This document shows positions 1 through 3,710 of a stretch of 64,000 bases of DNA, piece by piece. Made by a program: the position numbers and the translations under genes. The first letter of the stretch is position 1. The number at the start of each line of letters is the position of its first letter. This DNA comes from Methanocalculus chunghsingensis. GTDB lineage: Archaea > Halobacteriota > Methanomicrobia > Methanomicrobiales > Methanocorpusculaceae. The DNA lies in contig NZ_JWHL01000009.1 in the NCBI RefSeq assembly GCF_018132105.1, positions 5,125 to 69,124 on the forward strand, in the 5' to 3' direction. A model generated the notes under the pieces. That model ran no database searches. It saw only the letters and a list, made by a program, of their open reading frames with translations, and was not told where the DNA came from.

Positions 1-59
1 GGCTTACGACGATATCATCCCTGATACCGCCAGTACTTACGTACTTGCTTACTTTCGGA

Positions 60-490
60 ATCAGCGGTCACTCAATGAATGTCCGCATTACCACAGCCAA
101 CGTCAGAACCAACACCGGTCAAAGCCGGGTCGCATTGGTTCTCCACTGAGAATATCTCGGGTTTATTCTATACGCAGAACAGGTATTTAACCCCTGCGTT
201 CTGCATCCGGAGACTCTGTTTGAATCTCCTGCGCAGATTATACATGTTAGCGGGGAGAGGTTATATAGGTTCCTGCCAAAGCAGCTGAACCCATCGAATC
301 TCTTCACCACCCTGACGAGCCCCGGCATATACAGCACCGGGACCCGGTGGCGCAGGCCCCCTGCGAGGGAGTTGCGCCCGGTCGGAGGCAGGATGCCACA
401 ATCCCGGATATGCTCCGGGTTGCGGCTGATTCGGGCGCTGTTGCGCGGAGCAGTGCCCCGTCGCGGCGCCCTCCTGCCTCCTGCGACTCT
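60..490 (-). ncRNA. candidate long structured RNA (unknown family)
   Basis: No protein fits here, but many strong hairpins lie in a row. A 10-bp helix (384-393 with 472-481) encloses two hairpins (395-426 and 447-459) in a three-way junction. Others lie at 349-378, 267-292, 209-229, 174-204, 103-137 and 64-86. Six stems (A449/C457, A398/C423, C358/A370, A267/C292, C214/A224, C71/A79) have one A-C clash when read on the plus strand that becomes a G-U pair on the minus strand, so the RNA is probably made from the minus strand. A TATA box at 511-519 would place its start near 490. I see no signature of SRP RNA, RNase P RNA or tmRNA, and the 3' end is unknown. A long structured leader of a gene beyond the left edge is an alternative. 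Confidence 0.5.
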
Positions 491-510
491 ACATAGAATG
501 CTATTCGTAC

Positions 511-519
511 TTATAAAGG
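511..519 (-). promoter_or_regulatory. TATA box for the candidate RNA
   Basis: Read on the minus strand this is CCTTTATAA. It lies about 25 bases ahead of the first base-paired segment of the structured region, the spacing expected between an archaeal TATA box and its start site. The element is nearly palindromic, so it could also serve the plus strand. Confidence 0.35.
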
Positions 520-785
520 TTCGGATTTTCCAGAGATTTGGAGATGCCGGGACAGAAGACACATCAAAGAAACCCGGCAGACACACCCCGTTGAATCAGA
601 TTCAAAGAGGCCATGATGAAGACGCGCAGATACTCTGATCAAATAGCGAAGACCGAACCCTTCCCCGCCACATACAGACATTCCGGGAACACCAAAGAGA
701 TACCCCCAGAGACCTGTCAGTAGCCACCAGAGGAATAGAATAGGATAGATTAATCTCTCTTGCATCGCTGAAAAGAGTGGTATCC

Positions 786-1223
786 ATGACTGAAGGTTCA
801 AATCAAGGTCGGCGCCCCGCCATATCACTGTATGCCGTCACCGAATGGAACCCCGAAGAGATAGTCCTCCTCTACCGTGAGGCAGGATGGTGGGATGAGA
901 CCTATGACTCTGCCAATATACCCGCCCTCATCAAGGGGAGCCACCGGTTCGTCGTCGCCGTCGATGAAAGAACCGGCTCAGCTGTCGGCATGGGGAGGAC
1001 GATATCAGATGGCGTCTCGGATGCCTATATACAGGATCTCGTCGTCCTCAGACAGTACCGGAGATGCCGTATTGGAGTGGAGATCGTCAGGCATCTCCTT
1101 GATCTCTGCGCGGAAGATGGCATCGGCTGGATCGGACTCATTGCAGAACCTGGTTCAGACCCCTTCTATGAGAGGATAGGGTTCCGACCGATGATACAAT
1201 ATATCCCGATGCTGTATAAATGA
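786..1223 (+). CDS. GNAT-family N-acetyltransferase
   Basis: A 145-residue protein with the GNAT layout: a central strand (DAYIQDLVV) followed by the acetyl-CoA loop RRCRIG and a helix near residues 92-110, then a late strand and FYERIGFRP near the C-terminus, the usual end of the fold. The pyrophosphate loop is slightly unusual because Arg replaces its first glycine. The substrate cannot be inferred. A GTG at 777 would add three residues; the ATG at 786 is preferred. It is followed 10 bp later by a DUF2156 gene, and this pair of acyltransferase-fold genes is probably one operon. Confidence 0.75.
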   Translation: MTEGSNQGRRPAISLYAVTEWNPEEIVLLYREAGWWDETYDSANIPALIKGSHRFVVAVDERTGSAVGMGRTISDGVSDAYIQDLVVLRQYRRCRIGVEIVRHLLDLCAEDGIGWIGLIAEPGSDPFYERIGFRPMIQYIPMLYK

Positions 1224-1233
1224 AAGGAAGATA

Positions 1234-2163
1234 ATGCTCTCTTTAGATGATTTTTCACCGGTAACGCTGGAGAGCAGAGATGCAATCGAGCGATATCTGC
1301 AGTTATACCCCCAGACTCACAGCGATAATACCACCATCAATATGCTCTGCTGGAATCATTATGCCAATTATCATTATTCCATACAGAATGATTCACTCCT
1401 CATCATGACGATCGTCAATGGTGAGCGGACATTCCGCCTCCCTATCGGACCCAGGGATGATGGACTCATCACTGATCTCTTCTCTCTTGCATACCGGGAA
1501 GGGGGAGAGATCCCGATTCAGATGCTTGATGAGACAACCCGGCAGTGGACTGAGAACATCTACCCGGATCTCCCAATCCATGAGGATCGTGACTTTGCCG
1601 ATTATGTCTATCTCGCCTCAGATCTCGCCGACCTGCCAGGAAAGAAATATGTCACCATCCGGGGCCACATTAACAAATTTTTGAAATCCCGGAAATACTC
1701 AGTCGAGGCGATCACCAGGGATAAACTCGCCGAGATACGGATCTTCCTTGATGAATGGTGTGAATGGAAACATTGCGACGAGATACCAATTCTTGCCTAT
1801 GAGCGGGATGCAGTCATCTATGCGGTTGACAACTTCAACGACCTCCAGTGCCGCGGAATCCTCATCAGGACCGGAGAGGGGATAGGAGCAATTGCTATCT
1901 GGGGAGAACTGAACCCGGAGACGATTGTCGTTCACTTTGAAAAGGCCCTCCCCGGGTTTGACGGCACCTATAAGGTGATCAATATGAGGACAGCAAAGAC
2001 GGTGCAGGGTTCATACAGGTTCATCAACCGCGAGTCGGATATGGGAGCCCCAGGACTCCGCGAGGCAAAGAGCAGATACCATCCCGATCATATGGCACCA
2101 GTCTGGTACATCCGACGGAAGGAGATGGAGGCCAGAGCAGAGCTCTTCTTTGAGGATAAATAA
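1234..2163 (+). CDS. DUF2156 (phosphatidylglycerol lysyltransferase C-terminal domain) protein
   Basis: 309 residues resembling the soluble DUF2156 proteins, which share the double GNAT fold of the catalytic domain of lysyl-phosphatidylglycerol synthases but lack the membrane part. Supporting segments are the GHINKFLKS stretch near residue 145, GIGAIAIWGEL near 215, and the C-terminal INRESDMGAPGLREAKSRY, which matches the conserved NRExDxGxxGLRxxKxxY end of the family. The likely role is aminoacyl or acyl transfer, but the substrate is unknown. A ribosome binding site (GGAAG) precedes the ATG, and the gene follows the GNAT gene closely. Confidence 0.75.
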   Translation: MLSLDDFSPVTLESRDAIERYLQLYPQTHSDNTTINMLCWNHYANYHYSIQNDSLLIMTIVNGERTFRLPIGPRDDGLITDLFSLAYREGGEIPIQMLDETTRQWTENIYPDLPIHEDRDFADYVYLASDLADLPGKKYVTIRGHINKFLKSRKYSVEAITRDKLAEIRIFLDEWCEWKHCDEIPILAYERDAVIYAVDNFNDLQCRGILIRTGEGIGAIAIWGELNPETIVVHFEKALPGFDGTYKVINMRTAKTVQGSYRFINRESDMGAPGLREAKSRYHPDHMAPVWYIRRKEMEARAELFFEDK

Positions 2164-2367
2164 TCGAGACAGTAACTACCTCACACCCCCCATCCCCTTC
2201 TCTTTTCGGTGGATACAGTACGCAGAAATGCAACAGTCCGATAAGCCCGGCATAGCCTGTGTTAAAAAGATACATACCCAGGTACACCATGCACCAAATA
2301 CAACTGATCCCGGACGACCATCAGGAAGACTCAATAGACAACTATCATAATGCCGTCCGCATAAAAG

Positions 2368-3303
2368 ATGTATATGCAGTACCTCATCACCGGCGGCGCC
2401 GGATTTATCGGATCGAACCTTGCAGATCAGCTCGCAAAAGAGCATACAATAACCATCATCGACAACTTTGCCACAGGCAGGCGTGAGAATGTTCAGGATC
2501 TCATCGATCACCCGAATGTCACCTTCATCGAAGGGAGCATCACCGATGCCGATCTGATGCATGAGATCACAAAAGGGATCGATGGCATCTTTCACCAGGC
2601 AGCCATCCCATCCGTTCCCCGCTCAGTGAGAGATCCGATCACAACGAACGAGGCAAATATCACCGGCACATTGCAGGTACTTTTCGCCGCAAAAGAGAAT
2701 AATGTCCGCAAAGTCGTCACCGCTTCATCTTCCTCGGTCTATGGCGACACCCCGACCCTCCCAAAAGAAGAGGGAATGGCCGCCAACCCCCTCTCCCCTT
2801 ATGCAGTAACGAAGCTCACAGACGAGTACTATGGCAAGGTCTTCTCGGAACTCTATGGCATCCAGACCGTCTTCCTCAGGTACTTCAATGTCTTTGGGCC
2901 CCGGCAGGATCCCAATTCAGAATATGCTGCCGTCATCCCCAAGTTCATCACCCGGCTCCTTCAGAACGAATCCCCGATCATCTACGGTGATGGCGGCCAG
3001 ACACGCGACTTTACCTTCATCGCCGATGTTGTCCAGGCAAACCGGAAGGCGATGGAGAGCGATGCAATCGGCATCTATAATATCGCCTGTGGGAAGCGGA
3101 TCAGCCTCAATGATCTCGCAAAAACCCTCATGGAGATTACAGGCATACACCGCCCGTTAATATATGAAAACGAGCGGGAGGGAGATATCCGCGACTCGCT
3201 CGCCGATATTTCCAGAGCAGAGACAGCGTTTGGCTTTGATCCGGAATATACTCTTGAAGAGGGACTGAAAGAGACTGTCGCCTGGTTCCGGAAGAGGCTG
3301 TAA
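2368..3303 (+). CDS. NAD-dependent epimerase (UDP-glucose 4-epimerase-like)
   Basis: A 311-residue extended short-chain dehydrogenase. The NAD-binding GGAGFIGSN is near residues 9-17, the catalytic Ser lies in the TASSSSVYG segment, and the YxxxK pair is Tyr145/Lys149 (SPYAVTK). Length and motifs match archaeal GalE-like sugar-nucleotide epimerases that feed surface glycan synthesis; exact substrate is not readable. The ATG at 2374 (MQYLITGG) is an equally good start. It stands alone, with about 200 bp of non-coding sequence upstream. A second member of the family lies at 8876-9811. Confidence 0.85.
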   Translation: MYMQYLITGGAGFIGSNLADQLAKEHTITIIDNFATGRRENVQDLIDHPNVTFIEGSITDADLMHEITKGIDGIFHQAAIPSVPRSVRDPITTNEANITGTLQVLFAAKENNVRKVVTASSSSVYGDTPTLPKEEGMAANPLSPYAVTKLTDEYYGKVFSELYGIQTVFLRYFNVFGPRQDPNSEYAAVIPKFITRLLQNESPIIYGDGGQTRDFTFIADVVQANRKAMESDAIGIYNIACGKRISLNDLAKTLMEITGIHRPLIYENEREGDIRDSLADISRAETAFGFDPEYTLEEGLKETVAWFRKRL

Positions 3304-3407
3304 GGGCAGAAGGTAACAAAGAGAAGACACGATCTGAAGGAAGATCCCTCCCCCGGGCGTCCCCGTCCTAAAGTGGAAGAAGAGGGGAGACCTTCAGACA
3401 ACTTTAA

Positions 3408-3525: not shown

Positions 3526-3599
3526 TGGGCCTGTCCGGATTCGAACCGGAGATCTTCGCCGTGTAAGGGCGACGTCATAACCAGCTAGACCACAAGCCC
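3526..3599 (-). tRNA. tRNA-Val (anticodon UAC)
   Basis: A 74-base cloverleaf on the minus strand. The acceptor arms GGGCTTG and CAGGCCC pair with one G-U, followed by discriminator A. The D-arm contains TAGCTGGTTATGA, the anticodon stem TCGCC/GGCGA encloses the loop CTTACAC with anticodon TAC, and the T-arm TCCGG-TTCGAAT-CCGGA is perfect. CCA is not encoded and no intron is present. UAC reads GUA and other valine codons. Confidence 0.96.
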
Positions 3600-3710
3600 G
3601 TTCTGCCTATACCTATTATCCTGCTGACAGTTAAAGACTGTCGTTCGTGTCCGTCCAAAATGAAGGAGAGAGTCCGTCTGAACCTCTCCTCCACCCAGGT
3701 CATTCACAGT

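Follow-up and report, generated by a model that had tools for sequence, protein, structure and literature searches.

Positions 490 to 1 on the minus strand of the window, the 64,000-nt stretch of the Methanocalculus chunghsingensis genome (G000) that was analysed here (bases 5125-69124 of contig C43), are almost certainly the 5' leader of an rRNA operon (16S-tRNA-23S-tRNA-5S) of Methanocalculus, with probable transcript starts at three tandem promoters (P1-P3), a chain of hairpins, and predicted processing through a bulge-helix-bulge (BHB). The leader is an ordinary, important, and known kind of object, namely an archaeal rRNA leader. The original prediction, made from the sequence of the window, had described positions 60-490 as a single hairpin-rich transcript of unknown family. 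Its assignment of the region to the minus strand as a structured non-coding RNA was borne out, while the idea of an unknown family has to be given up, as the 16S rRNA gene starts just outside the window. The coordinates of the leader features are given in Table 1.

An rRNA operon beyond the window edge

Matches to Rfam covariance models on the minus strand of C43:1-5124 gave, in transcription order, the 16S rRNA, a tRNA, the 23S rRNA (372-3311), a tRNA, and the 5S rRNA. As these genes follow immediately downstream on the same strand, with the 16S gene first, positions 60-490 can be identified as the 5' leader of the operon. The 16S match is fragmentary because part of the 5' region of the gene is a run of N, and we therefore placed the mature 5' end using the covariance model together with a relative. 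Position 98 of RF01959 falls at C43:5000 and the first base of the window at C43:5125, which extrapolates the mature end to ~C43:5097, ~27 nt past the left edge of the window, and in the relative (G007) there are 28 nt from the base equivalent to window base 1 to ATTCTGG. Contigs C20 and C49 of the genome each end in a further copy of the leader, ~98% identical, and the homology of these copies reaches up to window position 526, just above the TATA box of P1, beyond which the sequences are unrelated. The run of N in the 16S gene and the presence of these leaders at contig ends point to an assembly in which rRNA repeats have collapsed, and this is part of the reason why the operon is invisible from the window.

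Searching window positions 1-900 against 4227 Rfam families gave no match at the gathering score, and at a relaxed threshold there were only chance matches with E above 4. The leader itself is not among the Rfam families, though the adjoining mature rRNAs are matched.

Table 1. Features of the rRNA leader in the window, in order of transcription
Feature	Positions	Strand	Description and basis
P1, probable outermost promoter	510..523	-	TATA box CTTTATAAG (518-510), upstream CCGAA
Branched leader domain	384..481	-	Outer helix 481-472/393-384 around two hairpins; minimum free energy (MFE) fold and six-copy alignment
Two more leader hairpins	312..380 (~380-347, 348-312)	-	MFE fold, comparison with relatives
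P2, probable second promoter	260..271 (box 269-260)	-	GAACCTATATAAC; position conservation
P3, probable 16S-proximal promoter	183..195 (box 192-183)	-	AGGGGTTAAATAC; inside inverted repeat
Conserved leader hairpin	101..145	-	TGGAG...CTGACGTTG; stem AGAACCAA/TTGGTTCT (142-135 / 112-105)
16S processing stem, 5' strand	59..102	-	Pairs with G000:C43 ~3570-3612, in the spacer that follows the 16S 3' end, beyond the window edge
Bulge-helix-bulge core	80..86	-	4-bp helix GCGG (86-83) with CCGU; ACA 3-nt bulges on both strands (82-80 here)
Remainder of pre-16S leader, from processing stem to mature 16S 5' end	1..58	-	RF01959 placement and G007

The 16S processing stem

The part of the leader nearest to the 16S gene is complementary to the spacer on the far side of that gene. 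Window positions 59-79 form a 21-nt inverted repeat (95% complementary) with C43:3592-3612, just past the 3' end of 16S, and the whole leader-spacer duplex has an energy of -73.8 kcal/mol. Within it lies a canonical BHB, with a 3-nt bulge, a 4-bp helix, and a 3-nt bulge, which is present in M. chunghsingensis and in most of its relatives, and the splicing endonuclease would be expected to cut inside the bulge, between positions 81 and 80. The pairing is compensated by changes on both strands. Across 35 sequences of the order, RNAalifold recovered 37 pairs, 30 of them long-range, with 98.7% of cells paired and two-sided changes in 17 of the 37, while slid controls reached only 22-44% paired and two-sided changes in 2-3 pairs. 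Covariation, which the original prediction had put forward as a check, is therefore present in relatives for the 16S processing stem. The small hairpin that had been described at 71/79 is a real local fold, but the same bases pair over a far longer stretch with the spacer after 16S; base 71 takes part in a G-U pair in the long processing stem too, and the hairpin is an alternative local fold.

By analogy with published work on haloarchaea, we propose the following route for this leader. Transcription would start from P1 near position 490, with P2 and P3 as probable further starts inside the leader, and the nascent leader would fold as a chain of hairpins. Once the 16S has been made, positions 102-59 would pair with the spacer that follows it, giving the processing stem, both bulges of the BHB would be cut by the splicing endonuclease (EndA), and the pre-16S would be ligated into a circle and trimmed later, with the hairpin-rich leader removed and joined to the downstream spacer as described for Haloferax. 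In Haloferax, the BHB and the processing stem are needed for circular pre-rRNA (pre-16S) and for normal rRNA levels (PMC7038931), and recombinant EndA has been observed to cut a truncated pre-16S substrate in vitro (PMC7714728). The rRNA leaders of Haloferax volcanii and Sulfolobus (PMC7038931, PMC8339473) resemble the one described here in position, strand, leader-spacer stem, 3-4-3 BHB, and the 16S-tRNA-23S-5S order; the Methanocalculus leader, which is known from sequence, differs in that its outermost and next promoters are separated by a branched, GC-rich domain of hairpins. A likeness can also be drawn to the leader-trailer helix and antitermination leader of the E. coli rrn operons (PMC10250234), in which the leader pairs with a trailer behind 16S and signals lie upstream of the helix. 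However, the bacterial stem is an RNase III stem, whereas a BHB is found here, and homology to boxA or boxB is no part of the likeness.

Probable tandem promoters and the upstream hairpin domain

The TATA box that had been noted at 511-519 corresponds to a TATA-like box on the minus strand (518-510), and the transcript would be expected to start 22-27 nt downstream of it at ~490, so that the proposed 5' end near 490 is plausible given a promoter near 515. This box probably marks the outermost promoter in a tandem series of three, an arrangement known from the rRNA operons of haloarchaea. TATA-like boxes matching all three promoters are found at corresponding positions in the Methanocalculus species whose sequenced leader reaches that far: the P1 box lies at ~-411 to -415 from a CTGACG motif in further members of the genus, and every Methanocalculus leader that extends across P2 retains both its sequence and its position. 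At the position of P3, many Methanomicrobiales share TATA-like boxes at ~-76 to -86 relative to the motif, and many other members of this order have two to four TATA-like boxes in series before CTGACG, those of Methanoculleus being at about -487, -357, -213, and -78. With a crude matrix derived from tRNA promoters, P2 scored 8.2 bits. A stricter matrix built from tRNA genes and restricted to -56..-28, which is usable but weak, gave 5.6, 4.2, and 8.7 bits for P1, P2, and P3, respectively; P3 was the best tRNA-promoter-like site of the region, sites of at least 8 bits occurring at ~0.16 per kb per strand. Because of the weakness of this matrix, the case for the promoters comes mainly from conservation, and for P2, with its low score under the stricter matrix, mainly from conservation of its position.

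Three transcript starts have been reported in Haloferax, at 185, 293, and 444 nt upstream of 16S (PMC4983044). For H. cutirubrum, the same article gives five promoters and a growth-rate-regulated rRNA promoter, and as outlined there (citing Dennis 1985), the operons of H. cutirubrum and Hfx. volcanii have several TATA-type promoters over ~400 nt before 16S. The arrangement proposed for Methanocalculus would be alike in this, its promoters being predicted from sequence motifs and their conservation. An inverted repeat at 199-162 (GCAGAACGCAGG...CCTGTTCTGCG) holds the P3 TATA in its loop, and this repeat could serve both as a DNA operator and as an RNA hairpin.

This raises the question of whether the inverted repeats are mainly DNA operators at P1-P3 for growth-rate control of rRNA, with the RNA fold being incidental. 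The P3 repeat, the location of P2 beside another inverted repeat, the recurrence of tandem TATA boxes across the order, and the regulated promoter of H. cutirubrum are all in keeping with such a role, but the folding favours selection on the RNA for the domain between P1 and P2. All six positions at which the original prediction had noted an A-C clash on the plus strand (449/457, 398/423, 358/370, 267/292, 214/224, and 71/79) are indeed A/C or C/A there and G/U on the minus strand. For positions 40-490, the MFE of the minus strand is -210.2 kcal/mol (z -7.76), compared to -185.8 kcal/mol (z -5.20) for the plus strand, which confirms that the fold is better on the minus strand; none of 100 shuffled controls was as good on either strand, and a significant plus-strand fold is to be expected wherever DNA has many inverted repeats. 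The minus-strand structure has ten hairpin loops, where at least eight had been claimed. Together with changes between copies that tolerate G-U pairs in the domain between P1 and P2, this strand bias makes a purely operator-based account unlikely, and operators would in any case be compatible with a leader RNA rather than exclusive of it.

The segment between P1 (518-510) and P2 (269-260) comprises ~240 GC-rich bases. Across six leader copies from two species, its consensus structure has 98.1% of cells paired; several changes are one-sided (G-C/G-U), a few are two-sided, and there are a few breaks. The outer stem with its two hairpins is also predicted in two further Methanocalculus species in which the sequence has diverged, and a CCGGY...GCCGG hairpin in the 312..380 region is recognisable in G003, G005, and G007. 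According to these predictions, the upstream domain keeps its broad layout, and not its sequence, in related species. In the corresponding region of other genera, z on the transcribed strand ranges from +0.7 to -6.5, meaning that strong folding is common and not universal. The absence of a coding frame that had been claimed for the region does not hold in the mechanical sense, as a 155-aa frame runs from 586 to 119 on the minus strand, but 1-nt gaps in the alignment of the leader with relatives argue against protein coding for this frame, and we take the region to be non-coding.

The very stable fold, and a similar broad layout that four species of the genus share although their sequences have diverged, could also suggest that the leader, once cut off, persists as a stable small RNA and has a function of its own beyond that of a spacer. 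We consider this quite improbable, as the upstream domain loses its sequence conservation outside the genus, where only the region near 16S has matches, several other genera lack strong folding (z about -2 or weaker), and there is no Rfam family. An independent non-coding RNA gene that merely adjoins the operon is scarcely credible and already contradicted: it would account for a TATA box of its own, a long structured region, and the Rfam result, but not for three leader copies whose homology starts at P1, nor for the fact that the 3' part supplies one strand of the 16S processing stem.

A conserved hairpin before the processing stem

Within the rRNA leader, a hairpin lies directly 5' of the processing stem, between the flanks UGGAG and CUGACGUUG. 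A 27-nt pattern made up of its 3' flank and the BHB strand was found at 75 loci in 84,980 genomes; a 16S 5' end lies 46-103 nt downstream at 68 of these, and the other seven run off the available sequence. Two contigs binned as bacterial, from the Deltaproteobacteria JPNA_maxbin.145 (L103) and Methyloversatilis C5_maxbin.029 (L066), carry a Methanomicrobiales rRNA leader, probably through contamination of these MAGs. A covariance model of the hairpin region has matches across the order and weak ones in one family outside it (f8). Among 16 genomes representing other families of the phylum, 13 have the hairpin or a close variant of it no more than 260 nt from 16S, where shuffled sequences would be expected to give 0.08, a comparison that is partly circular since the search rule was written after viewing the same sequences. 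Eight of the 13 have the TGGAG flank, one has TGGGG...CCGAC, with the matching C, and four have TGAGG...CTGAT. The same rule missed 17 of 59 Methanomicrobiales leaders, and those of them in the alignment have a third-pair mismatch that it disallowed. Fixed flanks around a swapped stem were observed upstream of 16S in L173, L178, and L181-L187. As covariation in the 8-bp stem is modest within the order (a two-sided change in one pair), the case for the hairpin rests on the replacement of the stem between families, where it has been wholly exchanged (for example, ACGTGA/TCACGT, ACCGG/CCGGT, TTGTAAG/CTTGCAA).

The hairpin, which sits next to 16S in most of the archaeal families that were sampled, has no Rfam match in the window, and the literature that we searched names no such leader hairpin. 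Outside of that literature, Dennis, Russell and Moniz de Sa reportedly proposed in 1997 (cited in PMC3608112 as ref 114) that U3-like sequences occur in prokaryotic 16S leaders; these would be alike in being conserved short leader sequences that might aid 16S folding, and we take them as a lead. A box C/D kink-turn at 145-101 was considered and rejected for this genome, as the flanks UGG-A / U-GA give G.A beside G.G and not A.G, while the TGAG...TGAT variant (families f13, f15, and f17) would fit such a motif better. Many Methanomicrobiales, together with several other families, also have a GTGTGC motif ~10-50 nt ahead of the mature 16S 5' end (L028, L045-L055, L173, L176, L181, and L182), and this motif may pair with 16S.

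It is possible, if somewhat doubtful, that the hairpin with flanks UGGAG...CUGACGU (variant UGAGG...CUGAUGU) and a freely swapped stem is an undescribed, phylum-wide element of archaeal pre-rRNA. A processing or assembly factor that sets up the processing stem might bind to it, or it might be the archaeal counterpart of a bacterial leader signal. With the identification of the leader, an apparent orphan RNA becomes a well-understood object, and it is worth considering that silence in Rfam beside an assembly gap can conceal an rRNA operon. The hairpin, in turn, offers a concrete target for finding what recognises the archaeal pre-16S leader before EndA cuts.
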